A stretch of DNA of 22,961 bases. Origin: a virus. The DNA lies in the IMG/VR virus record IMGVR_UViG_3300009076_000052, positions 1-22,961 of that record. The stretch is one strand, 5' to 3'. Under the pieces are notes generated by a model. The model ran no database searches. It worked only from the letters and a program-made list of their open reading frames with translations, and was not told the DNA's origin. Each line of letters opens with the position of its first letter. The first letter of the stretch is position 1. Shown here in pieces: positions 485-22,961 of the stretch. The position numbers and the translations under genes are program-made.

Positions 485-735
485 TAGATTTTGATGATGT
501 TGGTGAAACTACTAAGAGTGAAAGCGAATACACTATTGGCCTTAATAGGCTAAGTGATTTTGAAAAGTATGCATTTAAAGAGTACACTAATCACCACGGT
601 AGAGAGCCAGATGCTTTAGACCTTACAGCTTGGATTAAAGATGTGGGTATTGAGTGTGTGATCTTCTGGTTAGATGACAGACATTATGAAATGACTGAGA
701 CACTGAGGCATTTAATAGATGAAGACAGAATCTAA
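481..735 (+). CDS. small acidic hypothetical protein (84 aa)
   Basis: This 84-residue protein starts at an ATG that overlaps the exonuclease stop by 4 nt and ends 17 nt inside the following gene, the packing typical of a phage early/middle operon. It is acidic, contains no cysteine-pair or nucleotide-binding motif, and has no obvious membrane segment. The C-terminal half (Trp-Ile-Lys-Asp to the end) looks helical. I do not recognise a family. Coding status rests on the overlaps with confident neighbours and on the absence of any competing frame. Confidence 0.7.
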   Translation: MIDFDDVGETTKSESEYTIGLNRLSDFEKYAFKEYTNHHGREPDALDLTAWIKDVGIECVIFWLDDRHYEMTETLRHLIDEDRI

Positions 736-1463: not shown

Positions 1464-1481
1464 AGAAGAGCGGTGGTCCTA

Positions 1482-3092: not shown

Positions 3093-5189
3093 ATGACTAA
3101 TGCTATACACCAAGTAGCTGAGTACATAAGAAGTAACAGGTACGGTTCCAAAGGAAGGAACCATGCCGGTATCTCCTTGTTGAACAGACACCTTGAGTAT
3201 GGGGTAGACCACGAGGAACTAGTTGTGGCTGCAGTACAAGCAGCTCAATCAGTATTCCTTAGGTCCCGTAGGGCTAGCAACAAAGCATTCAAGCTTACTG
3301 CTACGTCTACCTCAATCGGGTTGGCTGTTGTGTCAAGGATTGGTATCGTGAATAGCACATACACTGAGTTGTTTTCTGTCGGTGATCTATTCATTGAAGC
3401 TTTCTTACAGCTCAAGTACATAGAGATAGAGCGTGAGTACGAGGGGTATCGTGCCCCATACGTAATATACTTAACAGAAAGATGGGAGGACTTAGGAGAT
3501 ATACCACCATGCTACGAAGGTTCTACCCTACTTGGTACTAGCTTCCGTAGATTCCCTAACATAGAGAAGCTAAGGAACCCTATAACCAAGAGGCCGTACA
3601 TCAAACGTATGACCTCTGACAGGGACTTTAGCCAATGCCTTGACCAACCCTTTGTCAAAGCGTTAGAGAAGCTACAGCAGGTACCATGGAGGCTTAACGT
3701 AGGGTTAGTGAAAGCCTTAAGGGATAACGTAACAAAGTTCATAGATATGGAAGACAAGTCTGACAAGGGCAGGTCTAAGCGTATCGAGATGAAGTTCATA
3801 CTCAACAAAGCTAGGGCTATAGGTGACAAGGATTTCTATCAGGCAGTTGAATGTGACTACCGTGGTAGGGTGTACTACACCGAACCTTTCCTTAACTTCC
3901 AAGGGTCTGACTTATCCAAGGGACTCTTTGAGTTCGCTAATGCTAAGCCAATGGATGACCGTGGGTACTATTGGCTATGTATCCACACCGCTTGTTCATA
4001 CAATCAATCGTACACAATACAGGAGCTTGACCAATTAAACTGGCTAACCGAAGACTACAAAATGAACTTGCAAGAAGAAAGTCTGGATACTATTTCAGTA
4101 GACAAAATGACCTTAAGGGACAGAGCACAGTGGACGATACAGAATCTACCAGCACTGATAGCGGATGCAAAGGACCTGAGGTTCAAGACGGAGGCAGAAA
4201 AACCAGTAACTCTGCTGGCCTGTTGCCTAGAGCTGCAAGGGTACTCCGAGGCGGAGGGTGAGTACTTATCAAGGTTACCTATACCAGTAGACGGGAGTAA
4301 CAATGGATGGCAACACCTAGCTGCTATGTCTAAGGACAGTCAAGCAGGGGAGTTAGTGTCTATCGTACCCCAGAAGATCCAGAAGGACTTCTATGTACAG
4401 GTAGCTAAGAGGTTGATTGATCGTATGCCTGAGTGGTTTGCTAAGCGAGACATACCCATGAAAGCTATCCGTAAAGGAATTGCTAAACGTGGGGCTATGA
4501 CTAGAGCATACTCTGCAGGTCAACGTAAGATAGCAGAGAACATGTACTACGATTGTAAGACTGAAGGGTACACTAAGAAGTATAAGATAAGCAAAGAAGA
4601 CTGCGACTTGCTCGCTAAGAATCTAATCCTTGCTATCAATGATACTTGTGTAGGCCCCCTAAAGACCATGAAGTTCCTACAGAAAGTAACGGACTTCATC
4701 ATAGGTAGTGGTGAGACTTGCCTCCAATGGACTACACCCTCAGGGTTCCCTGTGATGTATGAAGTATGGAAGCAGAAGAACATGACTATCCGTGGTACAA
4801 TACGTGGGCTAGGTCAGGTAGGGCACAGCATAAAGATACCTGTAACCACTAGCAGTGGTGACTTGATACCTTGCAGGAGATCTTTTGCTTCTGGGTGTTC
4901 ACCTAACTTCGTACACTCTATGGATGCTGCACACATGGCTAAGGTAATCGAGACATTCTCAGGGAACTTCGGGGCTATACACGACTCCTTCTCTACCCAT
5001 GCATGTGACGTAGATAAACTAGTAGAGCATACTAAGTGGCAGTTCGCTATGCTATACAACTGTGACAACTTCTTTAACAGGATAGAGTCGATGTTGATAG
5101 AGAACTTCAAAGGTTACAACGTAGCACAACCAGAGCTGGGAGACCTCAAGATAGAAGAGGTTGTTAGCTCAGACTATTTCTTTTCTTAA
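3093..5189 (+). CDS. T7-type single-subunit DNA-directed RNA polymerase (compact)
   Basis: A 698-residue phage RNA polymerase. The D-x-x-G-R motif is D255-Y-R-G-R259; motif A has D400 in V-D-G-S-N-N-G-W-Q-H; motif B has K465-R-G-A-M-T-R-A-Y473; motif C has D631 in A-I-H-D-S-F. D400 and D631 should bind the two catalytic metals. Upstream, L-Q-Q-V-P-W-R-L-N matches the family's conserved segment before the palm. The C-terminus S-D-Y-F-F-S resembles the aromatic foot (S-D-F-A-F-A) of T7 RNAP. At 883 aa, T7 RNAP has about 420 residues before D-x-x-G-R, whereas this one has 254, so the N-terminal promoter-binding region is much reduced. The ATG starts directly after the primase-helicase stop, with GGAG at 3084-3087. 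It probably transcribes the late virion operon; its promoters were not identified in the window. Confidence 0.96.
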   Translation: MTNAIHQVAEYIRSNRYGSKGRNHAGISLLNRHLEYGVDHEELVVAAVQAAQSVFLRSRRASNKAFKLTATSTSIGLAVVSRIGIVNSTYTELFSVGDLFIEAFLQLKYIEIEREYEGYRAPYVIYLTERWEDLGDIPPCYEGSTLLGTSFRRFPNIEKLRNPITKRPYIKRMTSDRDFSQCLDQPFVKALEKLQQVPWRLNVGLVKALRDNVTKFIDMEDKSDKGRSKRIEMKFILNKARAIGDKDFYQAVECDYRGRVYYTEPFLNFQGSDLSKGLFEFANAKPMDDRGYYWLCIHTACSYNQSYTIQELDQLNWLTEDYKMNLQEESLDTISVDKMTLRDRAQWTIQNLPALIADAKDLRFKTEAEKPVTLLACCLELQGYSEAEGEYLSRLPIPVDGSNNGWQHLAAMSKDSQAGELVSIVPQKIQKDFYVQVAKRLIDRMPEWFAKRDIPMKAIRKGIAKRGAMTRAYSAGQRKIAENMYYDCKTEGYTKKYKISKEDCDLLAKNLILAINDTCVGPLKTMKFLQKVTDFIIGSGETCLQWTTPSGFPVMYEVWKQKNMTIRGTIRGLGQVGHSIKIPVTTSSGDLIPCRRSFASGCSPNFVHSMDAAHMAKVIETFSGNFGAIHDSFSTHACDVDKLVEHTKWQFAMLYNCDNFFNRIESMLIENFKGYNVAQPELGDLKIEEVVSSDYFFS

Positions 5190-6284: not shown

Positions 6285-9200
6285 TTATTGTTGTATTGGG
6301 GGTAAGAAGTCTAGCATGTCTACGTTAGCAGCATCATCCATCTGATACTGTAGTATCCTACTGTTAGTCCGTTTAACTTCAGCTTCAATACCCTTACGTC
6401 TACGGTTAGAATCTACAACAGCCTTGCTAATCTGACCTTGAATGTTATTGTAAAGCTCATCTTGTATAAACTGTTGAGCATCAAACAAAGTCTTGTACGT
6501 CCTGTACTGATTCAACTCTACACCGTCACGGCTAGGCTTACTCTGAAGGTCTTTAATGAACGACTCAGCTGCAGCCTTGCTTTTGTGTTCACCACTAAAG
6601 TTCTTACGTAAGGTGTCAACAACAAGGTCAGCAATGTCACCGTAGTCTTGCTCATCAATCATAGAGCTGCCAAACTTAGCAGACATATCACTGAAGTGCT
6701 TATACCCATCCTTGAGGTTCTCCTTTAGGCTAAGCTCTAGCCCTTCAAGCATCTTAGTATTTGTAACATTCTTGTAGAAGATCTGATTAATCTTACGCTC
6801 AACTGCTTCAAAAGAACCAAGGTCTGTTATGACAGCATCGAAGATCGGTAGGATATAAGGGTCACCACCTACTTCTCTACGTAGGGCATTCATACTTTGA
6901 TCAGAGAATAACTCAGCCATAGTAGTCCCGTCCATGCTTTGAGCAAGGCTTGGTAGTATCTGTCCAGCTGCAACAGCTCCCATTCTACCACCCCTTTCAG
7001 CAGTAACATCAAATACCTTTTGCTTTTCCTTAACACTTACCTGTGTTTTAAGTGTACCTCTCTTGGCTTCTAAGGCAGCAACTCTATCCATGTTACCTGA
7101 TTGCTTAGCCTTTTCTATAAGAACGTTAAGGTCTTTATCTTTAAACTCTCGACCACCTTTCTTTGTTCTAGCCTTAGCGGTTGTAGCTTTAGACTGCTTA
7201 CCTGTGTACTGATAGGTAGTGCCACCGAATGTAACAGTGCCACCCAAAGGGTTAGTTGTTTCTAAAGCAAGGCCATACAGTGCAGAAGCACCTACCATTC
7301 GTTTAGCTAGAGTAGAGAAGTTTACAAGATCAGAGCCAAGGGTTTCCCGAAGGGCTGCTTCACGTACATCATTCAATAATACAGCTGCTTTAGTTACACC
7401 ACCGAATCGAACAGAGGCTGCCCTTAGGTCACTGTCAGATACAACAGTATCATAGACAGACTCAACTAGGTTATGCATCTCCTGACCGTACGGGAAGGTC
7501 ATCAAAGGGCCTTTAAGGAATGTCTTCTCGTTGTCTTTTGCAAGAGCAAGAGTAATCAGTTCCATTACCATAGGTATCTCATCTTCAGTATACCCGTGTT
7601 CTTTCATAAAGGTTTTGTCAGATAACGTAAGACCTGTGTAGTTTCCTTCAAGCAAAGAAACCATACGTTCTCTTAGTGCATCACGTAACTTACCACCAAA
7701 CGCAGTACGGTTAGGTACATCATCGTAGATACCAAGAACTCTTTCTTCACCTTCAGCTCGAAGTACACCACCACGGTACATAGCTCCAACGTTACCAAGC
7801 ATAGCCTGCATAGTAATCAAACCATTAGAGTTACCGTCCACCTCAATCGCATTGACTGAACTGTGGAAAGACTTACCACTACGGACTGCTTGATCGTAAT
7901 CAGCAAGAGCCATCATGTAATCTAAGGTTTGTAAGGTATGCTTATGAGAATCCTTAGCATCAGATAGACTTTCAAACAAAGCTTTTAAGTCTGGGTCTGC
8001 ATTAACTAGTTGGATAATAGAAGTGTTGTTGATACCTTCGATACCTCGGATACCTTGGGCAGTTAAAGTAACTTTACTAAACCCAGATACACTTTCTTGA
8101 GGGTTAAGGTCACCAACTAGTTTAAGTAATTTATTACCTAAGCTAACTACAGCTCCGTATCTTGCAGACCTACGTACCATATTATCACGAGCTATCTTTA
8201 TCTGAGTTTCAGGTACAAAGTCACCACCGTTAAAGAACATAGCTGAGAAACCTCTTAGCAATGCACGTTCTTGAGTAGAGTTACTTCCCGGTTTAATCTG
8301 GTACTTAACCCCTGAACCTATAATACCACGCATAAGATGGTTGTTCATGTAGCTGTTGTTCTGTATGACGTTGAATCGTGTAGTACCTGATTGGATATTA
8401 AAGGTATGATAGAAAGGTTTACCTGTGTACTTAGAGGCCATCATGCCTACTTCTAAGTTCTTATTAGCGTTGCTATAAAACTCAGGCTTAAGTCTAGAGC
8501 CAACAACCTGAGGGTTGCGTGAGCTAGCATCAGCTACAAGATCAGGGTTAGCCCCAACCTCATTAAGAAAGTCCTTAGGTCTCGTAAAAGTAATCCTAAC
8601 TTCTTCTACCTTTTCCCTCTGCATTTTTAAATCAAAGATACGTTTAGTATTTTTATCCTTACTAGCAGGGTTTGTTACAATCATATCCTCTAGCTCTTCG
8701 ATCATAATATCTATACGTTCAATCTTAGCAGCTTGTTTAGAAGCAATAGAAAGTATCTTATCAATCCTTTGACTACCCATGTCTACTATGTTATGAGTAA
8801 AGTTGTTACCGCCTCTAACTGGGTCAGTGGCAAGAGCAGCGGATAGCAAGGACATTCCAAGCGTACCCCTTCTGCTGTCGATAACATTAGCTACTTGAGC
8901 AGAGTTAACCTTAGCTTCATTGACAGTCTTTACATCTTTGTTAGGGTTAGAGCCAGACCTACTGCGCACCAGCTGACCTTCATTAGTATACTCACCTGAT
9001 TCAGGCTTAATAAATAAGAAGTTTTTCTTTGGGTCTGGTAGGGTGTACCTTTGAACTTCGTCCTGAAGAATCTTACGGCCCATAGGAGTCAAGTGATACT
9101 GAGCTTCACCTCCAGCGCCTGTGGCTAAATCCTTAAACACCATACCGTTAGAGATAGCAGCATACTGTGCCATCATAACCTTACCAATCATCTCAAAGGT

Positions 9201-10313
9201 TTCAGGGGTAGTGTTACGGAAGTCTTCTACATACGAGTCAGTGTCTTCCCCCTTACGCTGAGATAAAGATCGTCTTAAGTTTTGGAACATATCTCTACCA
9301 AGACGAGCCATACTTACTTCACTCTTACCTTCAGCTGTTGGATCAAACGCCACTTCAGCTATACCTGCAACCTGTGTATCTCCTTGAGACCTTACAGCAT
9401 CCTGCTCAAGCAAGAAGTTCTCTGTAATCATAGACATCAAAGGGACCATAGTAGGTTCAACTATGTATGGTTGTTGGTTGGTCAGGGTGTCAGGGTTGTT
9501 AAGGTAACCCTCGGGGGTAAGGCTTACTTCCTCTGATACAAACATTGGGTTAGGTACAGAAAGCCCGCCTAATAGTTTACTGGATGTAAAGATAGAAGCT
9601 GGTGATAAGACTAAGCTTTCACCCTTCTTACCAGTCATCATTGGTTTATCTTCTGAAGCTTCCACTTTTCTTTTACTAAGAGACTCTAGCTCTGTTTCAA
9701 ACTCAGGAGTTCCTATGGCAGAGGGGACACTAGGTGTGTCTCTGACTGGAAAGTTAATCATATCCCTGCCAGCAGCAGCTTGAGTATAGCCATCAAGTCG
9801 GCTGTAAGTTACTTCGCCTACAGCTTCACGAAGGCCAGACAAGTCAGACGCAACCCCTAAGTGCTCCTGCATACTAGGTGTTCTCTCTGACTCTCTTTGT
9901 AATCGCTCTAAGTTATCTACTGGTTGAGCATTAGGATCAGTAAAAGCTTCAGGGCCTGTGGCCGCTTGTACAGTCGCATAAGCAGACTCAAGGCTTCCCG
10001 GGATAATACTACCAGCTTCTTCTTCTAATGCGTAGGAAGCAGCTAATGCTGTCTCCATTTGATCTAATGCACTCAAAGTTTCTACTGGCGTATCTACAGA
10101 TGCACCCTCAAGTACAGGGCCATCAATGTAACCTCCCTCTATGAGTAAACGTTCTTGCTCTTCAGGGCTTAAGGTTGGGGCTTCCTGCCCCTGTGCTTCA
10201 TCCTGTGATACTTGAGTGTCCCTAGCCAACTGCTCTGCTAGGTCTAATCGTTTAGCTTTAGCCTCAGCTTCAGACTCAAACCCCTGTCCTACTAGTGTTG
10301 GGTTAATAGCCAT
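6285..10313 (-). CDS. giant virion protein with a single-subunit RNA polymerase core (N4 vRNAP-like)
   Basis: A 1342-residue protein, the last gene of the virion operon. Its C-terminal half carries the single-subunit RNA polymerase motifs in order. A degenerate D/T-x-x-G-R element has R646 (S-G-T-T-R, with Thr in the Gly place). Motif A is V-D-G-N-S-N-G with D826; motif B is K-T-F-L-K-G-P-L-M-T-F-P-Y-G with K934 and Y942. Motif C is Q-S-M-D-G-T-T-M followed by P-I-F-D-A-V-I-T-D with D1159. A-to-B spacing (108) is close to that of the phage N4 virion polymerase; B-to-C (225) lies between T7 and N4. The first 600 or so residues are not recognised and may serve packaging or ejection. The ATG overlaps the upstream stop (TAATG), with AGGAG 10 nt before it. 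Packaging is inferred from the operon position. A decayed polymerase serving only as an ejection protein is an alternative, but the two metal aspartates, Lys and Tyr are intact. Confidence 0.82.
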   Translation of the reverse strand: MAINPTLVGQGFESEAEAKAKRLDLAEQLARDTQVSQDEAQGQEAPTLSPEEQERLLIEGGYIDGPVLEGASVDTPVETLSALDQMETALAASYALEEEAGSIIPGSLESAYATVQAATGPEAFTDPNAQPVDNLERLQRESERTPSMQEHLGVASDLSGLREAVGEVTYSRLDGYTQAAAGRDMINFPVRDTPSVPSAIGTPEFETELESLSKRKVEASEDKPMMTGKKGESLVLSPASIFTSSKLLGGLSVPNPMFVSEEVSLTPEGYLNNPDTLTNQQPYIVEPTMVPLMSMITENFLLEQDAVRSQGDTQVAGIAEVAFDPTAEGKSEVSMARLGRDMFQNLRRSLSQRKGEDTDSYVEDFRNTTPETFEMIGKVMMAQYAAISNGMVFKDLATGAGGEAQYHLTPMGRKILQDEVQRYTLPDPKKNFLFIKPESGEYTNEGQLVRSRSGSNPNKDVKTVNEAKVNSAQVANVIDSRRGTLGMSLLSAALATDPVRGGNNFTHNIVDMGSQRIDKILSIASKQAAKIERIDIMIEELEDMIVTNPASKDKNTKRIFDLKMQREKVEEVRITFTRPKDFLNEVGANPDLVADASSRNPQVVGSRLKPEFYSNANKNLEVGMMASKYTGKPFYHTFNIQSGTTRFNVIQNNSYMNNHLMRGIIGSGVKYQIKPGSNSTQERALLRGFSAMFFNGGDFVPETQIKIARDNMVRRSARYGAVVSLGNKLLKLVGDLNPQESVSGFSKVTLTAQGIRGIEGINNTSIIQLVNADPDLKALFESLSDAKDSHKHTLQTLDYMMALADYDQAVRSGKSFHSSVNAIEVDGNSNGLITMQAMLGNVGAMYRGGVLRAEGEERVLGIYDDVPNRTAFGGKLRDALRERMVSLLEGNYTGLTLSDKTFMKEHGYTEDEIPMVMELITLALAKDNEKTFLKGPLMTFPYGQEMHNLVESVYDTVVSDSDLRAASVRFGGVTKAAVLLNDVREAALRETLGSDLVNFSTLAKRMVGASALYGLALETTNPLGGTVTFGGTTYQYTGKQSKATTAKARTKKGGREFKDKDLNVLIEKAKQSGNMDRVAALEAKRGTLKTQVSVKEKQKVFDVTAERGGRMGAVAAGQILPSLAQSMDGTTMAELFSDQSMNALRREVGGDPYILPIFDAVITDLGSFEAVERKINQIFYKNVTNTKMLEGLELSLKENLKDGYKHFSDMSAKFGSSMIDEQDYGDIADLVVDTLRKNFSGEHKSKAAAESFIKDLQSKPSRDGVELNQYRTYKTLFDAQQFIQDELYNNIQGQISKAVVDSNRRRKGIEAEVKRTNSRILQYQMDDAANVDMLDFLPPIQQ

Positions 10314-13300
10314 TAATAATCATCTCCTGTTATCCATTGTGCTTCTACCATATTATTGTAGACGTGATGTTTAAAGGGAGCAAAGACTGGTACCAGACCT
10401 ACGCCTGACTTTACCGTAGCCCTTGAGTCTCCTTCAATTACACCATGCACGAGTTTATATACGTTCTCGAAGATACCGGAAGCCGGAGCTTCACCTGTAC
10501 CGAAGTTCCATACAGCTTCACCGATGGTCCTACTTCTGTCTTCGTATAGTGGGAATAGTAAGTTGTTACTTAGTACTCTTTCAGTTGTTCCTAAGATACC
10601 TGAAGAGTATAAAGCTCTTAAGTACTTTTCATTATCCTCTAAATACGGAGATGACTCACCGAACTTTATAAGGTCTTTAAGGTGTTGAGCTGCATAGCCA
10701 AGCATTAGCATAGACATGAGCGTTGCAAAGGTAGAGTATCTAAACCCTGGAGTAGAGTTCTTGATTGAATCCCACATCCTTGGTATATGATGTGCAGTAA
10801 ACTTAGATGTAAAGCCTTGGAACTGTGTGAACATAGCTAGGTGTGGGTCACTGTAGAACAGAGGTCTACCCATAGCATCTGGCAAAGGCACAGCTTCATT
10901 GATAAAGTTAAACAAACCATTATCAAACTGTCTTTCCCAAGCTGCCATAGTCTCTGGGCTAGTGTCCCCATTAGTAATCCTTAGTGATAAGTCTAACATT
11001 TTATCAACAGGGATACCCATCTTCTCTAGGTGTCTACGGGACTCTCTGACTTCATTAGTATCCACAGTACCCTGATTAATTATGTCAAGGTTTCTGATTA
11101 AGAAGTCATTAAAAAAAGAAGCTCTGACTGTACGTGTAGCATTAGTAATAGCATTCAAACCAATAACCTTAAAGAACGAGTCCATAAGAGATCGAGTCAT
11201 CTTGTTAGTTTCAGATACACCTACTAGCTGAGCCTGACCAGTCCTTGCAGGACCAAAGCCTACTCTTCTATTCAAACCACTAGGGTCGTCATACTGTACA
11301 TAACGTGGGTCTCTAGCTGCTTCCTGTTCACGAGACTTAATCTTAGTTTCAAAGTTACTACGTTGAGGGACTACTCTTGTAAGTCTACCAACTTCAGCAA
11401 AGTACTCAAACATCTCACGACCAAGGATAAGACCTAACGAACCTACGTTCTTATTAAGAGTCTTTATGTCAACACCTAGTGGTGTTAATGCAAACTCAAC
11501 AAGAGACATTGGAGCTGCTAGCCCTAGCATAGTTAAGGTAGCTGTTAAGGTTATAGCTTTCTGTGTACCTCTAAGTGCATCACTTTCGATACGCTTATAG
11601 TTACCAGAGTCAGCGTTAATAAGATCTCTAACACCCTTGGCAAGATCAGAAGCAGTTGCATTAGCCTCAGCTTCCCTTTCTGAACCTGCTTCAGCACCCT
11701 TGCTAAGTTCTGCATAAACCTTTTCCATCATAGATGTAAGAAGTTTACTATCAGAACCTACGAACTTAGTCATAGTCATGTAACGAGATGCAGACTTCAT
11801 GGCATTCTCAGTGTTCTCAAAGAGATTCTGCTCAAAGAACTCATCAAACTTAACGTTATCTGATATGTCTAGGGTTCTACGCTTGTGAGTCTTAGGGACT
11901 AGTCCACCTTTAGTTAAGTCAAAAGCTTCGTCTAAGGTATGTATCTCAGCATTATCTAACAAAGAGTTAGTTATCTCAGATGCAAACTCAATAGACAACC
12001 CTTTCTCTGAAACAAGAAGTTGTATAAACTTATCTTTGTTCTTAGAGATAGCACTCTTAAGGAACCCTTTACTTCTAAAGATGTGATCCTGAAGATCACC
12101 AATAGTGTACGGCTCCCCTGCTTGACGTTGCCTAGCAGTCACACCTTCGTACATAGATCTATCTACAGAGTAAAACTCTTGTAGTAGTTCTTTAATCTGA
12201 CTTGAGTTCTCTTGGAACTTAGGGTTAGCTAAGTTATCCCAATCAATAGCAGCAACTATTTGATCAGCTGTCATCCAAGTTGCATTAGTATCTTCGTTAG
12301 CTGTTATAGGTTTAACATGTGTGTTAAAGAAGCTATACATTAAGGTAGATAGTTCCTTGCGCATAGCACCAGAACCTTTTGCTTCTAACTTAAACTTAGA
12401 ATATAGATTTTCAACAGGTGTAAGCAAAGATTCAAAAGTTCTAAAGTTACCTACCTTATCACTATGGAAATCAACACCACCATGTACCTTCTTATCCCTA
12501 CCGCCCATCATGTCATACAGTTTTCTAAGAGTAGGGCTACGATCTAAGATGTCTTTGGTAAACAAAGTATCTCTTGCATCCCTTAGTAGAAAGCCTGCAT
12601 CTTTAAGGCCATCACCAAGGTTCTCGGTAACAGTTTTCCCGTCACTTTGTACTTGCCCTGCGTCAGCTCTCTCTGTAAAAGAAAGACCTTCACCCTCTGG
12701 TTTAATCTTACCCTCTGGTGCTTCAGTTTCAGTAGCCTCAGGGGCCTTAGAGGCCTTAGAGTCTTCCCATTCTTGTCGAATAACTTCGTCTAAGTCTGCA
12801 ACTCTACCATTAGCATCTCTGGCTTCTGCCTTGTAGCCTTCAGTGGCATCATCAAACATGCCATCATACTTAGCCATAGCAACAGATGCATCTTTCCATT
12901 GACCTGCTTCCCATACACCACCGGGTGTAGCAAAAGCAGAACCCATCATGCCTCCAGCAATAAGGGCATTAGTCATTCTATGCTGTAGCTCATCAAAGTC
13001 CCAAGTCTTTTCAGACCCAAGGACTGCTGCAGTGTACTGTGTAAGTTCCTGAAACATCTCAGTGCTGCCCTCAAAGGCTGCACCAGTAGTCAGTCTACCA
13101 GCAAGTCGTTTAACTAAGGCACCCTTCTGTAACTGTGTGTTAGCAAACTTAGCTGCATCGTCTGCATAGCTAGATATCTGCCTCTTAGTCATAGAAGCTA
13201 GTGCAACAGTAGCCTGTTCTTTACTAAGACCTCTGGCAGTAGCCGCAGCTTGTTGTTCTACAGGCAGTAAGGCAGCAGCTCTGGCTCTTTGAGGCCCTTG

Positions 13301-15016
13301 GGCTCTCATAACCATACGAACAGCTTCCTCTTTACCCTCTTTAGTGATAAACTGTGAAGGTCTAATGATACCCATAGCACCTTTGATACCAAATACGTCC
13401 AGTGCAGCAGCAATAGCGCCACCAGCGATAGCAATACCATAGCTTTTGTCGTCTTGCTCACCTTCCATCTCGTCTAGTATCATACCTGAGTACATAGCTA
13501 CGGGTATAGTAAGACTACCACCCATAGTTACCCCAGCAGATGCAATAGATGCAACAGTAACACCCATAAACGGCAGAGAAGTTGCTAAGTTGTTACCAAG
13601 AAACTCTCCAACCTGTCCAATATCAGTAAAGTCTACGTCTCTGTAGTCTAAACGGACCCCAGGGGACTCTGCTAGCTGACTCTTAGAGTATGCAATGCCA
13701 CCTAACAGGTAAGCTTCAGCATCATCGTAGCCTAGTATATCAGAACCCATGACAGCTACCTGTTTAAAGGAGTTACCTACCATAGTTACTGCAGAATCCC
13801 ATGACTGGGACATAGGGTGTATAGCTCTACCTTCCATATCGGATGCGTAGTTACGAAGAACTACACCAGAGAACAGTTCAGGGGCTCTAGCATACTCTCT
13901 TTCGTTGAGAGCTAGCTTCTTAGCTACATACTCACCACCTGAGTTCTCAAGACCTGAAGCTCTGATGATAGCAGCTGCTCTCTCTACCGTAGACAGTTTA
14001 GTGTCGGGGTCTTTACCTGCTCTAGCCGCTAGGCCATACAGGTAACGAGAGTAATCTTCATCACTCATCATCATGTCAGTCTTGCCAATAAACTTAGGCT
14101 TAGCTATACCAGATGATACTAAGAAGTTTTGAAAAGAGTTACCATCTTTGTCAACTAAGTCACCGATCTTTCGGCCATACCCAGCTTTCTTGTCGGTAGT
14201 CTTAGCGTTAGTGAATCCATACTCGTTTGCAAGACTAGCTACGTATTGTTTAGTAACTTGACCAGAGGCTTCACCCATCTGATACCCGCTTTGTCTAAGG
14301 AACTTCTCAACTTCCGCTAAGTCTATCCCTTCGAATCGGTAGCTTTGACCAGTCTCTTTATCACGGAAAGTATCACCATCAACCAGCTTGTACCCTGAGT
14401 CACCGATGTCATAGTCGGCTTTGGAAAAGGCAGCCTCAGGTGCTGCTCTCCTCTTTTCTGAATGAGCAGCTACAGCGTCTGATACTTTCTTCATTCGTCT
14501 GTGTACGCCACTATCAGTTTCTAATGAGTTGCGGTAATCTTTGTTATCAAGAAACTCTAAGGATGCTTGATTGTAGTTACCTTCATTAAGTAGTTTTATA
14601 AAATTGGGAGAATGTCCTAAGTCACCTCGGTACTCAGCTTGTATAAGCTCAGCCTGAAGTTCCTTTGGGTATGTCCCAAGATTAGGTATTCTTGATTGTG
14701 CTCTATCTACGTGGTGCTGGTATGCGGCTTCAAAGCCCTTCTCAATCCACTCACCTGTCTGACCTACACCTTGGGTAGTGATACCTTTAGTGTCGGTGTA
14801 AGGGGTAGCAACGTACCCCTCCTCTTCCACAACTCTCTGCTCAGCATACGTAAGAGGACGACCAATGTTCGCCTCTACTTGTGCTATAGCGTCTGATCCG
14901 TGGTAGACTTCCTTGTCCACCTTCATATCAACTGTAGGATTTAAGTCAGAACTTACATCGTCTATGTAGCCTTGCTCTATTAATTGCTCTTGTGTTAACT
15001 TAGTGTCGTCGTTCAT
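10313..15016 (-). CDS. giant internal virion/ejection protein with GH24 lysozyme and SNase-like domains (gp16-like)
   Basis: A 1567-residue protein in the place of the T7 gp16 ejection protein. Residues about 55-185 form a T4-lysozyme-type GH24 domain with E66, D75 and T81 at exactly the T4 lysozyme spacing (E11/D20/T26) plus the G-x-G after the Thr. Residues about 205-308 form a staphylococcal-nuclease-like domain: V-D-G-D215-T, R227, D232 and E235 in R-F-E-G-I-D-L-A-E, then G-Y-G-R282 and a D-G-N-S-F-Q-N-F-L-V end. Hydrophobic segments lie near 485-511, 525-551, 1155-1176 and 1425-1442. The C-terminus has R-P-L-F-Y-S-D-P-H and T-Q-F-Q-G-F-T, typical of large podovirus ejection proteins. The lysozyme should open peptidoglycan during DNA entry; the nuclease role is unknown. 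AGGAG at 15026-15030 is 9 nt from the ATG. Confidence 0.88.
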   Translation of the reverse strand: MNDDTKLTQEQLIEQGYIDDVSSDLNPTVDMKVDKEVYHGSDAIAQVEANIGRPLTYAEQRVVEEEGYVATPYTDTKGITTQGVGQTGEWIEKGFEAAYQHHVDRAQSRIPNLGTYPKELQAELIQAEYRGDLGHSPNFIKLLNEGNYNQASLEFLDNKDYRNSLETDSGVHRRMKKVSDAVAAHSEKRRAAPEAAFSKADYDIGDSGYKLVDGDTFRDKETGQSYRFEGIDLAEVEKFLRQSGYQMGEASGQVTKQYVASLANEYGFTNAKTTDKKAGYGRKIGDLVDKDGNSFQNFLVSSGIAKPKFIGKTDMMMSDEDYSRYLYGLAARAGKDPDTKLSTVERAAAIIRASGLENSGGEYVAKKLALNEREYARAPELFSGVVLRNYASDMEGRAIHPMSQSWDSAVTMVGNSFKQVAVMGSDILGYDDAEAYLLGGIAYSKSQLAESPGVRLDYRDVDFTDIGQVGEFLGNNLATSLPFMGVTVASIASAGVTMGGSLTIPVAMYSGMILDEMEGEQDDKSYGIAIAGGAIAAALDVFGIKGAMGIIRPSQFITKEGKEEAVRMVMRAQGPQRARAAALLPVEQQAAATARGLSKEQATVALASMTKRQISSYADDAAKFANTQLQKGALVKRLAGRLTTGAAFEGSTEMFQELTQYTAAVLGSEKTWDFDELQHRMTNALIAGGMMGSAFATPGGVWEAGQWKDASVAMAKYDGMFDDATEGYKAEARDANGRVADLDEVIRQEWEDSKASKAPEATETEAPEGKIKPEGEGLSFTERADAGQVQSDGKTVTENLGDGLKDAGFLLRDARDTLFTKDILDRSPTLRKLYDMMGGRDKKVHGGVDFHSDKVGNFRTFESLLTPVENLYSKFKLEAKGSGAMRKELSTLMYSFFNTHVKPITANEDTNATWMTADQIVAAIDWDNLANPKFQENSSQIKELLQEFYSVDRSMYEGVTARQRQAGEPYTIGDLQDHIFRSKGFLKSAISKNKDKFIQLLVSEKGLSIEFASEITNSLLDNAEIHTLDEAFDLTKGGLVPKTHKRRTLDISDNVKFDEFFEQNLFENTENAMKSASRYMTMTKFVGSDSKLLTSMMEKVYAELSKGAEAGSEREAEANATASDLAKGVRDLINADSGNYKRIESDALRGTQKAITLTATLTMLGLAAPMSLVEFALTPLGVDIKTLNKNVGSLGLILGREMFEYFAEVGRLTRVVPQRSNFETKIKSREQEAARDPRYVQYDDPSGLNRRVGFGPARTGQAQLVGVSETNKMTRSLMDSFFKVIGLNAITNATRTVRASFFNDFLIRNLDIINQGTVDTNEVRESRRHLEKMGIPVDKMLDLSLRITNGDTSPETMAAWERQFDNGLFNFINEAVPLPDAMGRPLFYSDPHLAMFTQFQGFTSKFTAHHIPRMWDSIKNSTPGFRYSTFATLMSMLMLGYAAQHLKDLIKFGESSPYLEDNEKYLRALYSSGILGTTERVLSNNLLFPLYEDRSRTIGEAVWNFGTGEAPASGIFENVYKLVHGVIEGDSRATVKSGVGLVPVFAPFKHHVYNNMVEAQWITGDDY

Positions 15017-15051: not shown

Positions 15052-17613
15052 TTACAGTTTTGGAACTATATCTTTTAATGAACCAGCATTAAACTTGCTA
15101 GATGTATTGCCTAGTGACATTACCCAAAGAAGTTGAGGTGATGCTGCTTCCTCATTACCTTTCTTAACAGAAGCGTCTGAGGCACCTAACCAGTGCTTTG
15201 TAAACGCAGTACCTTGAGCTGCTTCCTGTTCATTATAAAGTCTTTCTAAGTTAGACCACATAGCCGTTTTATTAATACGATTAGGGTCCATCTTATTATA
15301 ATCAGCAAAAGCTGACTTTAAGTTTTTAACTTTATTAGAAGCTTTACTAAAGACATTAATTCCAGTTTTATCTGTAGCGCCTTTAAGCTTAGGTATTGCT
15401 AAGAAACCATCAGATATTCTGTTTCGAGAATCTGATTTAATCTGTTGCATCTCTAAGAAACCTGCAAGTTGTTTAGAGCCTGCACTGCTTCTTCCATCAG
15501 CAATAGCAATAGCGTACTGCTCTATACCATTGTTCAACGCTAGTCTCATTTCAGGGGTATCGTAGTTAGTGTTAGCCGGTAACATGCTTGTAAACAAAGT
15601 AACACCGCCTTCAAGCTGTGAGGTAGTTAAGCTACCCTTTATACGAGCGTCAAGGGCCTTTTCGTCTTTACTTTCAAGACCTCTTCTTTGAGCAACGTTG
15701 CTGACTACGCTATCAATAGTGTTACTAAGGTTATCGGACACATACGAAGTTAATTCTTTTTGTATGTCTTGAGAAGTGTCACCCTTACCTAAAATATACT
15801 GACCATCAGTCATCTGCCTTAAAGCCGCAACAGATACTACACGGTTCTCTGGGGTTAACCCAAAGACTTCTGGGTTGTCAAGTGAAATAAGCTGACCGTT
15901 CTTAGAGAAAGAACCCGTAAGGTTTCTTTGATTTACGGTGTCGTATATCTCAGCAGTCTTAGAGAAATCAATTGACTGATCATCCATTAGTTTCTTCCGT
16001 GCAGCTATAACTTCCTTACCGTATATCTTTTCTAATTCAAAGTCTTGTTTCTTCTGAGCAGCTTCTTGCTTCCACTCATTCTCAAGGACTTGACCAGCAA
16101 AGGTTACACCATCGTAGCCTACAGCTCTTGAAGCTATGTAAGCAAAGAGAGTCCTACGGACCTTAGGGTCATCAAGCTGTTCTTTAAAGAAACCAGAGAC
16201 ACCGTTCCACACACGCTTAAGGAATGACTCCTCAGGTTCATCATCTTCCTTTTCACCAAGGTTTTCGATAACCTTATCAGCATCCTTCTTAAGAGTAGGT
16301 TCAATTGTTTTAACAACTGTTTCAGCTTCTTTAACTGTAATCTCTTTCTCAGCCTCAGCGTTAGCAGCCTCTTGCTCTACTAAATCCTCTTCACCGTCTT
16401 GATAGAAAGGGGAAAGGTTATTAGCAATCCTTTTCTCAGCATGTGCTTTAGCTTTGTCTATAATAGACTGAGGTGGCAACGAGCCTTCAGGTAAGTTCCT
16501 AAGAACCTCTATCTCTTCTGCAGTTAACCCCGGGATCATAGATGGTACAAGTACTTCACCATTCCCAAAGTTTACACCTATGCTTAACTCAGTTCTTAAA
16601 GAGTTATCATTGCCCTTAATAGGGCCAAGGAATCCTTTCGTTGACTTTGTAGTACCGTCAGGTCGAAGGAGGGAAGGGTCTACTACAGGTTCAACCACGG
16701 GGATATTAGATCCTTCTGGTTTAGGTACATTTGGCTCAAGGGTGAAAGGTTGTTCTTCAGTATACTCATCTACAGTATCATTAGTGAGAGATTGATAGTA
16801 ACCAATAGGGTCTCTCTCTAGAAGAGCTAAAGCCTTAGGGTCCGCCTCAATACGCTTTCTAACATCATCTCTATCAAAGTAGTCTCTAACTTCTACAGTA
16901 AGCTCTCTTTGACTTTCTTGATCTGGAGTGTCTGTAAAGTAGCCTGATGCTCTGTTAAATAAACCTCCGCCTAAAATAGCTTTAGACTTCATACCACCTT
17001 TAGTTGGAAGGCCTCCGCTAGCTAAGGGTTGAATAGCTCGATCGTAAAGGGCTCTTGTATTAACGACTCTAGTAGAGCCTTCTACGTCTGCGTCAAACTG
17101 AGACTGATCTTCCCCACGTACAGTAGGGGGTGCGTTTAACTCAACTTGATACTTCGGTACATCTGGGAGCCGATAAGGGCCGGAAGACTCAGGTACTACT
17201 GGTTCAGGTGCTTCAGGTAAACCTTGAGCAGATTCTCCTAACACTACCTGTTCAGGTGGACGTAGGACAAAGTTATCAGAGTTTGGAAGAGGAGCAGCTG
17301 TAGGTATTGTAGGCTGAGGTATGTTCATTTGCACAGGGGGTACAACACCGATGTTATCAAAAGACTCTGGTGTATACTGTTGGTTAAATGCTGTGTCTAC
17401 TGGCATTAGCTTAGATGGGTCCATATTTTGCTGGAATGCTAATTCCTGAGAGGTCTCTTGTAGCGGAATAGACTGCTGAGGTGCCATAGGTATCTGAACC
17501 TGAGGGATCTGCTGTTGTGTCATTTGAGGAACTTGGAATCTATTTACATCCTCCGCATCCATATCATCCACTAGGCCCCTAAGGAGCTTTGATAAATCTG
17601 TTATATTAGACAT
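15052..17613 (-). CDS. large internal virion protein (853 aa, gp15-like position)
   Basis: An 853-residue protein between the gp14-like and gp16-like genes, hence probably a component of the internal core or ejection apparatus. Residues 1-180 are Pro/Gln-rich low-complexity sequence. At about 334-410 is a module recognisable from many phage virion proteins: L-S-I-G-V-N-F, then V-P-S-M-I-P-G-L-T, then I-I-D-K-A-K-A-H-A-E-K-R-I and S-P-F. It recurs in podovirus structural proteins with no known function. A Glu/Lys-rich charged linker follows, then a long, mainly helical C-terminal region. No enzymatic motif is seen. AAAGGAG lies just before the ATG. The structural role is inferred from position and the module. 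Confidence 0.8.
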   Translation of the reverse strand: MSNITDLSKLLRGLVDDMDAEDVNRFQVPQMTQQQIPQVQIPMAPQQSIPLQETSQELAFQQNMDPSKLMPVDTAFNQQYTPESFDNIGVVPPVQMNIPQPTIPTAAPLPNSDNFVLRPPEQVVLGESAQGLPEAPEPVVPESSGPYRLPDVPKYQVELNAPPTVRGEDQSQFDADVEGSTRVVNTRALYDRAIQPLASGGLPTKGGMKSKAILGGGLFNRASGYFTDTPDQESQRELTVEVRDYFDRDDVRKRIEADPKALALLERDPIGYYQSLTNDTVDEYTEEQPFTLEPNVPKPEGSNIPVVEPVVDPSLLRPDGTTKSTKGFLGPIKGNDNSLRTELSIGVNFGNGEVLVPSMIPGLTAEEIEVLRNLPEGSLPPQSIIDKAKAHAEKRIANNLSPFYQDGEEDLVEQEAANAEAEKEITVKEAETVVKTIEPTLKKDADKVIENLGEKEDDEPEESFLKRVWNGVSGFFKEQLDDPKVRRTLFAYIASRAVGYDGVTFAGQVLENEWKQEAAQKKQDFELEKIYGKEVIAARKKLMDDQSIDFSKTAEIYDTVNQRNLTGSFSKNGQLISLDNPEVFGLTPENRVVSVAALRQMTDGQYILGKGDTSQDIQKELTSYVSDNLSNTIDSVVSNVAQRRGLESKDEKALDARIKGSLTTSQLEGGVTLFTSMLPANTNYDTPEMRLALNNGIEQYAIAIADGRSSAGSKQLAGFLEMQQIKSDSRNRISDGFLAIPKLKGATDKTGINVFSKASNKVKNLKSAFADYNKMDPNRINKTAMWSNLERLYNEQEAAQGTAFTKHWLGASDASVKKGNEEAASPQLLWVMSLGNTSSKFNAGSLKDIVPKL

Positions 17614-18821: not shown

Positions 18822-19625
18822 TTACTTACCCCCTCCTGATTGTTTAGTTATACTACCGAAGTCAATACCACTAAGCATGCTAGATGCATCTCGTAGGTTT
18901 TGTCTCGGTGCATCCTGCTCAAATTCAAATCGTTCTCTATCAGCATCAATATCTGCTTGACCGTAACCTTCATAACCAGCACCAACATCACGTAGGATTT
19001 GACTACCTTTAAGAGATGCGTCTTGCAAGCTACCTAGCTGTCTAAACATATCACCCTGATAGGCCCTGTTAGAGTCTACCATTCCTTGAAGAGCCTTAGT
19101 TCTTGTATCACCTACAGAAGATGCTAGCTCGCCTGCAGCTGAAGACTTAAGTAAAGCAGCACGGTCACCACCAAAGGCACCTGCATTAACCGCAGCAGTA
19201 TTAAGTCCAGGGATTGTCTCTTCGTTAAATTGTTTCATCAGAGGGTTAGTCAAGGCATCCAAGTACTCTCCGGTTCGTGGATCATTCATCGGATCGTAAG
19301 CCATTGCATCTTGGAACCTGTCAGCAGCTGTGCCAGCTAAGGCACCAGCAGAACCCGCAGCCCCACGTTGAGCCTCTAGTCCTTGGACAGAAGCAGCGTC
19401 ACGTTCAGCTAGTGTACTACCTCCATAGAAGTCTTGGGGCCCAAAGCCTTCCATCTGATTTGCATAGCCTAGTTGTTTTTCAAGTATTCGTCTTTGTTCT
19501 GGAGAAGGTCCAGTAGTAGAAGTACCACCACCACCCTTATAGTTAATCATATAGTTATCAGTAATCGCCCCAACTTCTGCGTCATACTCATTAAACTGTT
19601 TAGATCTTTTTCCTTTAAGTTTCAT
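18822..19625 (-). CDS. putative virion structural/ejection-associated protein (267 aa)
   Basis: A 267-residue Ala/Gly/Asp-rich protein. A basic N-terminus and a short Gly/Thr/Ser linker (residues 32-40) lead into helices. The N-A-G-A-F-G-G-D-R segment, preceded by a D-P-R-T-G-E-Y-L-D-A-L-T-N-P block, is seen in a class of phage structural proteins located between tail and internal-core genes; the exact role of that class is not known to me. The C-terminal third is a predicted helix rich in Asp, Glu, Arg and Gln. It overlaps the preceding gene by 11 nt, with AAAGGA 7 nt from the ATG. The virion role is inferred from pattern and position. Confidence 0.7.
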   Translation of the reverse strand: MKLKGKRSKQFNEYDAEVGAITDNYMINYKGGGGTSTTGPSPEQRRILEKQLGYANQMEGFGPQDFYGGSTLAERDAASVQGLEAQRGAAGSAGALAGTAADRFQDAMAYDPMNDPRTGEYLDALTNPLMKQFNEETIPGLNTAAVNAGAFGGDRAALLKSSAAGELASSVGDTRTKALQGMVDSNRAYQGDMFRQLGSLQDASLKGSQILRDVGAGYEGYGQADIDADRERFEFEQDAPRQNLRDASSMLSGIDFGSITKQSGGGK

Positions 19626-20082: not shown

Positions 20083-20472
20083 TTACGGTTTAGTTGGAAA
20101 CGAGACCTGAGACAATGCAGTTGCATCTACTGAGTTAGCAGGTAGATCCCTTAAGGCTTGTCTATATACAGCCCACTCTGTTTTCTTCTCATCAGACAAA
20201 GGGCTATCAGGCATCTGAGTCCAATCGCTCATCATAAGGTAGGACTCTCTCATCCCTCGTACAGCTCTGTCTAAGGTAGCTTTAGCTTCTGAGGGACTAG
20301 TGGTACCCTCAAGGAAGACACCGCCTATAAAGTACTTATGAGAGGCCTCAGGGGTACCTACGGTATAGCTCTCAGTACCTGAGTGATTATACTCAATGTT
20401 TTCTTCGTTACAAATTAAAGTCTTTTTAATAAGACCTGTATCCGTATCATATACAACGTAGTTAGTACTCAT
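20083..20472 (-). CDS. tail fibre assembly protein, Phage_tail_APC-like
   Basis: A 129-residue protein. The C-terminal half has R-G-M-R-E-S-Y-L-M-M-S-D-W-T, P-D-S-P-L, E-W-A-V-Y-R-Q-A-L-R-D-L-P, the strongly conserved pattern of the phage tail assembly chaperone family (Phage_tail_APC). The N-terminal half is a small beta domain ending in the Y-F-I-G-G-V-F segment. Such proteins usually sit directly after a tail fibre gene, as here: its ATG overlaps the fibre stop by 4 nt (ATGA). The likely role is to help fold, trim or attach the fibre. Confidence 0.85.
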   Translation of the reverse strand: MSTNYVVYDTDTGLIKKTLICNEENIEYNHSGTESYTVGTPEASHKYFIGGVFLEGTTSPSEAKATLDRAVRGMRESYLMMSDWTQMPDSPLSDEKKTEWAVYRQALRDLPANSVDATALSQVSFPTKP

Positions 20473-22961
20473 TTCTTAGTCTCCAGTATATCTAACGTAG
20501 CATCAATAGCGTTAACACCCCAAGCAGTTCCGCTTTCTAATACTTTAAAAATTAAAGAAGTTTCTATTCGAGTAGTCCCTGAAGGAGGGGTAGACAAGAA
20601 ATCAATAATGTGAGCATTAGTGTTACGATGAGTCGCTGTTACATTAAAGTTAACTTCTTGGTTAGTCGATAGTAATGTGGTTACATTGTAGTACTTAACC
20701 TGAACTGTCACATCAAGCTTACAAAAGATATTAAACATAGAAACCGAGTTGTTATTATAGGCAGGTTGAAACCAAAGTTTACCTCTAATCCTAGTAGGTG
20801 CCCCGGAGTTATTTACATTCAACGTTACAGGCATAATTTCAGTGTTATCATCCTCTTCATAGTAAGTATTAATAGCCGTCTTAGCAGAAGAAGGTACAGT
20901 AACAGCTTGACCTGCAATAGTTAAAGTATCTACAGATCCATTCTTAATGTAAGCGGTATCCATGTACACACCTGCAGGAACTGACTCACCCCCTACAGTA
21001 GTTGGGGTAGTAGTAACAACAAAAGGATTAGGTGTTGCTAGCTCATTCCAAATGTAACCACCTTGAGAAGCACCTGAAGACCTAAAATACTTTTTGGTTA
21101 TAGTCGCCCAGTATATCTGACCTAAAGACCCTACTGTGCTGCTAGTGGGGCTGTACGGCCCTGTAAGATCAGGGCTAGGTGCTAGGTAAAACCTATCAGC
21201 TGCTATGGCAAACTCAGAGCCAGTAGTAGCATCATTGTATAAACCAAAGCCAGCTACCTTACCAGCCACATCAGTCTTAACTGTAAACTGAGATGTGAGT
21301 CCATTTATAGTAGAAGCTTGAGTTTGTATGCTAGCTGTGTTGTCCCCAACGGTAGTGTTTAAAGTAGATATTTTAGTAGCTGAAGCAGCGACTCCATCAT
21401 CAGAGTCATTAACTAATGTTTCTACCACATCCAAAGCACTGGAAACAGCACTAAACCCTGTAGTAGGGTTATTAATAGTGGATTCTAAAGCACTAACTTT
21501 TGTAGCTGTAGCGTTAACTCCGTCATCTGTATCATTAACTAAAGTCTCTACAACATCTAAAGCATTAGCTGTAGCAGCAACTCCTGTAGTAGCATTATTA
21601 ACTGTAGATTCTAAAGCACTGATCTTACTAGCTGAAGCAGCTACTCCGTCATCTGAATCATTAACTAAAGTCTCTACAACATCTAAAGCATTAGATGTAG
21701 CTGCAACTCCTGTAGTAGCATTATTGACTGTAGCCTCTAAAGAATTAAGTCTATTTGCAGAAACAGTAAGACCTGTGGTTGAGTCGTCAATTGCATTTTC
21801 AACAGCACTTAAATTGGTTACTGTAGCTGCAAGCCCGGTAGTAGGGTTATTTACAGTAGACTCTAATACACTAATCTTACTTGCAGAAGCTGAAACACCT
21901 GTAGAGGTGTTATTAACTAAAGTTTCTACAGAGTCTAATGCACTTGAAGTAGCTGTAACACCTGTGGTAGCATTGTTAACTGTAGATTCTAAAGCACTAA
22001 TTTTATTAGCTGAAGCAGTAACTCCAGTGCCTGTAGCATTAACTAAAGTTTCTACTGTATCTAAAGCATTAGATGTAGCAGCAACACCAGTAGTAGCATT
22101 ATTAACCGTAGACTCTAGTGTGCTTACTTTATTATTCAAGGCGGTAACACCAGTACTTGAGTTATTAACTAAGGTTTCTACAGAGTCTAATGCATTTGAA
22201 GTAGCTGTAACACCTGTGGTAGGGTCGTCAACTGTAGATTCTAAAGCACTAATTTTATTAGCTGAAGCAGTAACTCCAGTGCCTGTAGCATTAACTAAAG
22301 TTTCTACTGTATCTAATGCTTGCGAAGTAGCTGCAACACCAGTAGTAGCATCGTTAACTGTAGATTCTAAAGCGCTAATCTTACTTGCAGAAGCTGAAAC
22401 ACCAGTGTTTGAGTTGTTGACTAAAGTCTCCACAACATCTAAAGCATTTGATGTAGCTGTAACTCCTGTAGTAGCATTGTTAACTGTAGATTCTAAAGCA
22501 CTAATCTTAGCAGCTGAAGCAGTAACGCCAGTGCCTGAAGCATTAACTAGTGTTTCTACTGTATCTAATGCTTGTGAGGTAGCAGTAACACCCGTAGCAG
22601 CATCATTGACTGTAGATTCTAAAGCACTAATTTTATTAGCTGAAGCAGTAACACCAGTAGAAGCGTTATTAACTAAAGTTTCTACAGAGTCTAATGCTTG
22701 CGAAGTAGCAACAACACCTGTAGTAGCATCATTGACTGTAGAGTTAAGGGCTGTAATAGCCTGAGCTGCAGCAGAAGAACTACCTGCAGTTACTGTATTA
22801 ATTGCAGTAATATCTGCAGAGTTATCTGCTACCAAAGCACCTAAGCTAGAGTAGTCACCTAACACATCCCAAAAAGAAGTGTTCGTAGGTAAATTACCCG
22901 TAGTAGCTGCAGTCGCAATGTAAAGTTTATCAAGGTAAACAACTTGATCGTTAATAGCGTA
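20469..22961 (-). CDS. tail fibre / host-recognition protein with tandem repeats, 5' partial
   Basis: The frame is open to the window edge, so the gene extends beyond 22961; at least 830 residues are visible. The GTG at 22865 is an internal valine. The first visible residues (A-I-N-D-Q-V-V-Y, L-Y-I-A, T-G-N-L-P-T, F-W-D-V) resemble a small carbohydrate-binding (CBM5/12-like) fold. Eleven 42-residue repeats follow (21366-22751), each two 21-residue halves of pattern L-E-x-x-V-N-x-x-x-T-G-V, then Q-F-T-V-K-T-D, V-A-G-F-G-L-Y and S-E-F-A-I-A-A-D-R-F. That last block is the DUF1983 signature of lambda gpJ-type host-specificity proteins. After it come A-Y-I-K-N-G-S and a beta-rich C-terminus probably contacting the host. 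A trimeric fibre is likely. Confidence 0.87.
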   Translation of the reverse strand, partial: YAINDQVVYLDKLYIATAATTGNLPTNTSFWDVLGDYSSLGALVADNSADITAINTVTAGSSSAAAQAITALNSTVNDATTGVVATSQALDSVETLVNNASTGVTASANKISALESTVNDAATGVTATSQALDTVETLVNASGTGVTASAAKISALESTVNNATTGVTATSNALDVVETLVNNSNTGVSASASKISALESTVNDATTGVAATSQALDTVETLVNATGTGVTASANKISALESTVDDPTTGVTATSNALDSVETLVNNSSTGVTALNNKVSTLESTVNNATTGVAATSNALDTVETLVNATGTGVTASANKISALESTVNNATTGVTATSSALDSVETLVNNTSTGVSASASKISVLESTVNNPTTGLAATVTNLSAVENAIDDSTTGLTVSANRLNSLEATVNNATTGVAATSNALDVVETLVNDSDDGVAASASKISALESTVNNATTGVAATANALDVVETLVNDTDDGVNATATKVSALESTINNPTTGFSAVSSALDVVETLVNDSDDGVAASATKISTLNTTVGDNTASIQTQASTINGLTSQFTVKTDVAGKVAGFGLYNDATTGSEFAIAADRFYLAPSPDLTGPYSPTSSTVGSLGQIYWATITKKYFRSSGASQGGYIWNELATPNPFVVTTTPTTVGGESVPAGVYMDTAYIKNGSVDTLTIAGQAVTVPSSAKTAINTYYEEDDNTEIMPVTLNVNNSGAPTRIRGKLWFQPAYNNNSVSMFNIFCKLDVTVQVKYYNVTTLLSTNQEVNFNVTATHRNTNAHIIDFLSTPPSGTTRIETSLIFKVLESGTAWGVNAIDATLDILETKK
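21366..22751 (-). repeat. eleven tandem 126-bp (42-aa) repeats in the tail fibre gene
   Basis: Eleven units of exactly 42 residues are in register with no indels. Each unit is itself a pair of related 21-residue halves: A-L-E-S-T-V-N-N-A-T-T-G-V with its tail, then V-E-T-L-V-N with N-x-S-T-G-V and its tail. Units near the middle (about 21724-21850) are the most diverged, with N-L-S-A-V-E-N-A-I-D-D. Twenty-one residues equal three heptads, so a triple-stranded coiled-coil or beta-helical shaft is plausible. Confidence 0.93.
21978..22316. repeat. 87-bp exact direct repeat (21978-22064 and 22230-22316)
   Basis: Two 87-bp stretches are identical base for base and lie 252 bp apart, exactly two 126-bp repeat units. 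Neighbouring units differ at many synonymous positions, so this pair probably reflects recent duplication or gene conversion within the fibre shaft. It is a ready substrate for deletion or expansion in steps of whole units. Confidence 0.9.

Follow-up and report, generated by a model that had tools for sequence, protein, structure and literature searches.

The window analysed here is a 22,961-nucleotide stretch of viral DNA (positions 1 to 22,961 of IMG/VR record IMGVR_UViG_3300009076_000052), and a large gene on its minus strand encodes a protein of 1567 amino acids (aa). A first-pass annotation had placed a GH24 lysozyme fused to a staphylococcal nuclease (SNase)-like domain at the N-terminus of an ejection protein. 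Both domains, with their signature residues kept and at the N-terminus of a large protein in the ejection-protein gene block, were supported by profiles, structural models and relatives. The features of the gene are given below.

10313..15016, minus strand: single open reading frame of 1567 aa, with GH24 and SNase domains and a long ejection-protein-like remainder
14438..14908, minus strand: GH24 (T4-lysozyme-like) domain, aa 37-193, assigned from the PF00959 score, structural alignment with T4 lysozyme and an invariant triad
14819-14821, 14792-14794 and 14774-14776, minus strand: codons of the GH24 triad E66, D75 and T81, respectively
14057..14398, minus strand: SNase domain, aa ~207-320, assigned from profile, AlphaFold model and relatives
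14378-14380, 14372-14374 and 14336-14338, minus strand: SNase codons D213, D215 and R227, respectively
14321-14323, 14312-14314 and 14171-14173, minus strand: SNase codons D232, E235 and R282, respectively

Positions 14062-14851 (minus strand), to which the annotation pointed, correspond to residues 56-318 of the frame at 15016-10313. The first ~35 residues of the protein were variable among the aligned relatives. They were followed by GH24 (aa 37-193), a short linker and SNase (aa ~207-320). In a full-length hmmscan of the protein, neither GH24 nor SNase was listed at E<=0.1; hence, domain-sized queries were needed. Single-sequence scores were also weak, and the case is therefore built on profiles, models and relatives.

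The claim that residues 66, 75 and 81 reproduce the Glu/Asp/Thr triad of T4 lysozyme at exact spacing was borne out. E66, D75 and T81, assigned according to what we take to be the T4 numbering, follow the Glu-(8)-Asp-(5)-Thr spacing (steps of 9 and 6 residues) and were invariant in the window and in all eight IMG/VR loci. The PF00959 score of the window domain was 21.1 bits, below the cut-off of 22.3, which was exceeded in six of the 18 records searched, the window not being among the six. The two-domain AlphaFold model had a mean predicted local distance difference test (pLDDT) value of 67.7, and its comparison with T4 lysozyme (1t8g) in VIA gave Z 10.2 over 121 residues at a root mean square deviation (rmsd) of 3.7. 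According to this comparison, aa 37-193 are predicted to adopt the T4-lysozyme fold, and peptidoglycan hydrolysis is the predicted activity. Foldseek with the two-domain model gave zero matches at E<=0.001, and the SNase domain was therefore modelled alone.

The SNase region was evaluated by profile comparison and by structure prediction. The PF00565 score of the window was 15.4 bits in the genome search, below the cut-off of 21. A phmmer search with the single window sequence found a thermonuclease in the PDB at E 0.016 only, and the region matched phrog_452 (endonuclease) at E 0.011. A profile of seven SNase sequences matched 95 PDB sequences at E<=1, with a best E of 1.5e-5, and each of the 60 listed among these 95 bore the name thermonuclease, staphylococcal nuclease or Nuclease A. 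The alignment paired D213, D215, T216, R227, D232, E235 and R282 of the window protein with SNase D19, D21, T22, R35, D40, E43 and R87, in what we take to be the staphylococcal numbering, and these positions fell on conserved phage residues. The five correspondences proposed for D215, R227, D232, E235 and R282 (D21, R35, D40, E43 and R87) were thus all recovered. The SNase-only AlphaFold model, built from nine sequences, had a mean pLDDT of 68 and a predicted template modelling score of 0.61, and its strands and helices followed the order that we take to be that of SNase. Foldseek with this model gave 240 PDB matches at E<=0.001 (best E 2.8e-5), and the best 50 of the 240 were all SNase. The top row in VIA was also SNase, with Z 8.4 (middling by the tool's own note), 98 residues and rmsd 3.8. 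In a structure search of viral models, the first match was a 1368-aa protein of the same length as gp34 of Roseobacter phage CRP-7, and the third was a 1342-aa protein of an uncultured phage, to which the name SNase-like had already been given. The structure prediction thus gave the OB-fold SNase domain that the annotation had anticipated, and the region at aa ~207-320 was confirmed, at the level of model comparison, as a predicted SNase-family OB-fold domain. It resembles staphylococcal nuclease (thermonuclease) in modelled fold and signature residues. Staphylococcal nuclease is a secreted single-domain enzyme, whereas the window domain forms part of a phage protein of structural type.

A search for other phage proteins with the domain pair was fruitful. 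GH24 followed by SNase was found in seven of the eight IMG/VR loci with GH24 (L008 had the lysozyme only) and also in two Foturvirus phages of Alteromonas, vB_AspP-H4/4 (gp39/gp40; H4/4) and vB_AmeP_R8W (gp43/gp44; R8W). As in the window, GH24 in H4/4 and R8W is directly followed by SNase, and the pair begins a large internal virion protein; both matched window residues 37-221 at 49% identity, in two pieces. They differ from the window in that the two domains lie in different frames. GH24 is a separate frame of 160-161 aa annotated as endolysin, and SNase, in the -1 frame, forms the start of the internal virion protein (PF00565 23.7 and 26.9 bits, respectively, over the cut-off). The -1 slippery site GTAAAAAAGTAG, identical in H4/4 (L010 12472-12483) and R8W (L035 7469-7480), lies at the lysozyme/SNase boundary. 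Window residues 37-260 matched positions 2-221 of phrog_37474, and H4/4 gp40 filled positions 162-2087; according to these shared positions, the lysozyme and the start of SNase are collinear in the window protein and H4/4. The slippery sequence is given in the H4/4 paper, in which no nuclease is named on the gp40 protein (PMC5658483). The R8W paper treats the lysozyme as a lysis endolysin, and a term search of that paper found no words beginning nuclease, frameshift or lysozyme (PMC8228385). The H4/4 SNase also matched the middle (1101-1211, E 1e-6) of phrog_8809, a 2317-position phage family without assigned function.

CRP-7 gp34 and five CRP-7-like contigs (L012-L016) resemble the window in having an N-terminal SNase on a large protein and the same gene order. 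The SNase of gp34 lies near residues 33-150, and GH24 is absent from gp34 and from the corresponding proteins of the five contigs. Unlike in the window, a Pesticin-type lysozyme (27.5 bits, cut-off 25.8) opens gp35 (L011 5379-9050), which lies just upstream of the SNase protein and is annotated hypothetical. The C-terminal part of gp34 was related to the window protein (28%, E 3e-16). In INPHARED, 43 records matched the window protein. Among the 40 listed, 39 matched only within residues 27-221, and CRP-7 matched the C-terminal part instead. SNase was also the first domain, with no lysozyme before it and with D40 present, in a 1838-codon frame at L043 5977-11493. In a tblastn search, the L043 domain matched nucleases annotated in Bacillus SPbeta-type and Staphylococcus phages at E 3e-4 to 6e-3, within the best 40 of 45 records. 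Two faecal phage records lacking annotation also gave SNase matches, in frames of 244 and 628 codons that were taken for stand-alone nucleases.

Across these comparisons, large proteins with an N-terminal SNase occur in at least three phage groups. The domain thus recurs as the opening module of large proteins encoded at this gene position, sometimes with a wall-cutting domain on the same chain and sometimes with one on a neighbour. The PF00565 cut-off was passed in two of 17 records searched (H4/4, and G003 only with neighbours in frame) and also in R8W, with zero matches in CRP-7, the five CRP-7-like contigs, L005 and L007, all of which were found by the SNase alignment. Only L002, L009, L010, L011, L015 and L016 were found by this alignment without being among its own rows. 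Absence by PF00565 alone is therefore weak. This applies to the lysozyme-only relatives, since PF00565 matched none of the seven examined (1.264.O, VPMCC5, PS32B.1, T4S1, pVa5, VBP32 and N4). A scan of viral contigs with the seven-row SNase alignment gave 10 loci, none on a contig new to the sample. A scan of genome contigs with the SNase alignment gave 50 pattern-matched stretches, of which 0 were confirmed, a weak negative because a single short pattern was used.

The conservation of the SNase domain was evaluated in a nine-sequence alignment of the window group and CRP-7-like proteins, which included proteins 28-29% identical to the window. L008 (no SNase), L002 (99% like the window), CRP-7 itself, L009 (same domain as L003) and L015-L016 (same domain as L014) were left out. 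Invariant residues occupied 23 of 149 window positions, including all seven signature positions. The chance that the five residues named by the first-pass annotation all fall in invariant columns was 6e-5, a value that ignores relatedness. That for seven residues was 9e-7, which also ignores relatedness and includes D19 and T22, added after the alignment was seen. A wider count covered 17 records with 14 distinct domains (the window, L002-L007, L009, L011-L016, H4/4, R8W and L043). Not counted were a second record of the H4/4 genome (L042), fragments lacking the N-terminus (L017-L018) and contigs already sampled (L019-L028). D19, D21, T22, R35, E43 and R87 were present in 17 of 17. The loss of the five residues in close homologues, which would have spoken against the domain, was not observed; all five were kept, and only the more distant H4/4 and R8W have N at D40. 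The ratio of nonsynonymous to synonymous substitution (dN/dS) of SNase was 0.03-0.23 in seven of seven pairs; the ratios are rough for three pairs, in which the synonymous distance exceeded 1.6. The SNase domain is under purifying selection.

The remainder of the protein and the adjacent genes were examined for evidence of an ejection function. The relevant features are as follows.

13361..13585, minus strand: two hydrophobic segments, aa 478-504 and 525-552, a candidate membrane region (Kyte-Doolittle scan)
11471..11557, minus strand: hydrophobic segment, aa 1154-1182 (Kyte-Doolittle scan)
15052..17613, minus strand: 853-aa neighbour in the position of the tunnel (gp15-like) protein, by gene order only
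6285..10313, minus strand: 1342-aa next gene, virion-RNA-polymerase (vRNAP)-like (phrog_2206, E 2e-7; hhalign with schitovirus vRNAPs)

All three hydrophobic segments found lie C-terminal of the SNase domain; the Kyte-Doolittle scan is a crude measure that detects no more than one segment in T7 gp16. Residues 1262-1457 matched phrog_6958 (virion structural protein) at E 6e-23. The 853-aa neighbour had no Pfam match at E<=0.1 and no PHROG match at E<=0.01, and the gene at 18822-19625 had a weak match to a DNA ejection protein family (E 2.7e-4). T7 gp16 is like the window protein in having an N-terminal wall-cutting domain on the largest ejection protein (PMC8954989). It differs in carrying a transglycosylase instead of GH24, and none of its 11 PHROG matches was named nuclease. 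The label of ejection protein fared less evenly. Gene order and domain relatives favour it, since H4/4 gp40 and the L043 protein matched phrog_342 (E 2.7e-74 and 2.3e-70, respectively), which T7 gp16 matches end to end. Against it, the window protein had no match to phrog_342, the PHROG of T7 gp16, and hhalign of the window family with T7 gp16 gave a probability of 0.1% and no alignment. Hence, the window protein is probably of the ejection type by position and domain relatives, and not a shown homologue of gp16. Judged by gene order and domain relatives, it would be carried in the virion and ejected.

The end of the GH24-SNase gene shares one base with the vRNAP-like frame. Among the 40 of 43 INPHARED records listed, the N-termini of Vibrio schitovirus proteins annotated as vRNAPs matched the window lysozyme. 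The N-terminal GH24 of Vibrio phage VBP32 was homologous to that of the window (hhalign 99.6%, E 9e-24, against VBP32 by itself and 79.8% against an alignment of VBP32 and N4). The schitoviruses VBP32, N4 and pVa5 differ from the window in having no PF00565 match, and in VBP32 the lysozyme and polymerase are one protein. Over polymerase-motif stretches, hhalign of the vRNAP-like neighbour gave E 1.7e-7 against an alignment of VBP32 and N4 and E 1.2e-5 against VBP32 by itself, compared with E 0.37 or worse for 10 shuffled copies of the VBP32 protein. Two CRP-7-like proteins in the query alignment shared only 17% identity with their counterpart in the window. The stretches IEVDGNSNG, KGPLMTFPYG and FDAVIT presumably represent polymerase motifs. 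The profile found no RNA polymerase in the PDB, which counts against the vRNAP reading, and tblastn found no match in INPHARED. If the vRNAP reading is true, the lysozyme and polymerase of one giant VBP32 protein are split here over two adjacent genes. Besides the vRNAP-like protein, a separate T7-type RNA polymerase is encoded at 3093-5189 (PF00940, E 1.6e-56). The exonuclease, primase-helicase and RNA polymerase genes at 2-5189 (plus strand) face the large structural genes on the other strand, and the CRP-7 layout is the same. A SegE-type GIY-YIG endonuclease lies at 912-1460 (plus strand; PF19835, E 1e-27), and a tail-fibre-like protein of many similar repeats lies at 20469-22865 (minus strand). 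The strand opposite this gene also has an open frame of 478 codons, which is probably a by-product.

The two domains were then considered in the context of DNA delivery. According to PMC8954989, the N-terminal part of T7 gp16 with the transglycosylase is in the periplasm after ejection and the C-terminal part reaches the cytoplasm. By analogy with this topology, both GH24 and SNase would act in the periplasm. The same text describes ejection proteins as carrying swappable wall-cutting domains, which swap between gp15-like and gp16-like proteins (PMC8954989), and the lysozyme on CRP-7 gp35 fits this swapping. The reading put forward here is that the gene encodes a large internal virion protein with a GH24 muramidase and a calcium-dependent SNase-family nuclease acting in the periplasm beside the DNA tunnel, and we give it about an even chance. 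After adsorption, the N-terminus would reach the periplasm, where the muramidase would open the peptidoglycan. The nuclease would sit outside the tunnel and cut free nucleic acid in the periplasm, and the phage DNA would be shielded inside the tunnel. SNase enzymes require millimolar calcium. The nuclease would thus be idle in the calcium-poor cytoplasm of the producing cell, and periplasmic calcium would be plentiful if the host is marine, a setting suggested by the isolated relatives. Calcium in the marine periplasm, not in the cytoplasm, together with DNA inside the tunnel would reconcile a nuclease with DNA delivery. Candidate targets are nucleic acid where the phage enters and the DNA of other phages; a domain that only binds would have no target.

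Several observations weigh against this reading. The isolated window domain scored 14.8 bits for PF00565 (cut-off 21), compared with 15.0 for PASTA. The SNase-only model was of middling confidence, with pLDDT below 50 over residues 235-250, that is, from E235 onward. The second row in VIA was a tudor domain at Z 8.1, tied with SNase, although the other listed rows were SNase. The full site was not kept everywhere, since D40 was present in 15 of the 17 records and was N in H4/4 and R8W; the domain in that Alteromonas lineage may be altered or inactive. T41, P42 and tyrosines 113/115, which we take to be SNase positions with the tyrosines as nucleotide contacts, were not conserved in the phage domains. 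Moreover, since the window protein matched neither T7 gp16 nor phrog_342, the periplasmic placement is an analogy.

Some of these points would also suit other explanations. The resemblance could be coincidental and the region not an SNase domain, as the subthreshold single-sequence PF00565 score, the silent full-length hmmscan and the absence of PF00565 matches in CRP-7, its five related contigs, L005 and L007 might suggest. This explanation is already largely refuted and highly improbable, given the PDB profile matches, the Foldseek and VIA results, the scores of H4/4 and R8W over the Pfam cut-off and the annotated Bacillus and Staphylococcus phage nucleases found with the L043 domain. A domain that no longer cuts, and whose OB-fold binds DNA or RNA, or else a protein partner within the ejection complex, deserves more weight but is still rather unlikely. 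It would account for the N at D40 in H4/4 and R8W, for the unconserved tyrosines and for the faster evolution of SNase, whose dN/dS was above that of GH24 in four of four pairs with both domains measured. However, R35, E43 and R87 of SNase matter for catalysis rather than folding, and their retention in 17 of 17 records, even in domains 19-29% identical to that of the window, argues against a purely binding role. The nuclease could instead be active and enter the cytoplasm with the leading proteins, attacking host DNA or RNA early. The vRNAP-like neighbour is in favour, in that the delivery of enzymes to the cytoplasm described for N4 (PMC12633501) may also occur in this phage. Such an early attack nevertheless appears improbable: free calcium in the cytoplasm is low, the incoming phage DNA would be exposed, and SNase precedes the first hydrophobic segment found and adjoins a wall-cutting domain that has to act in the periplasm.

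For the periplasmic nuclease, an exclusion function was also considered, in which a nuclease on the injection machine of several phage groups destroys free periplasmic nucleic acid, including the DNA of competing phages. This extension is speculative and seems unlikely at present. Among the CRP-7 genes, most of which are hypothetical, none was named as a DNA-modification gene that could protect CRP-7 DNA. If the exclusion function is real, the particle would bring it without gene expression, and the nuclease would act together with a wall-cutting enzyme in the calcium-rich periplasm. Term searches through the full text of open-licence papers, partly judged by titles, did not find a nuclease domain with intact signature on an ejection protein. 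The arrangement raises the question of how a phage brings a nuclease beside its own incoming DNA, and what the nuclease cuts. Isolated phages with the domain exist (CRP-7, H4/4 and R8W), and the nuclease question is therefore testable.

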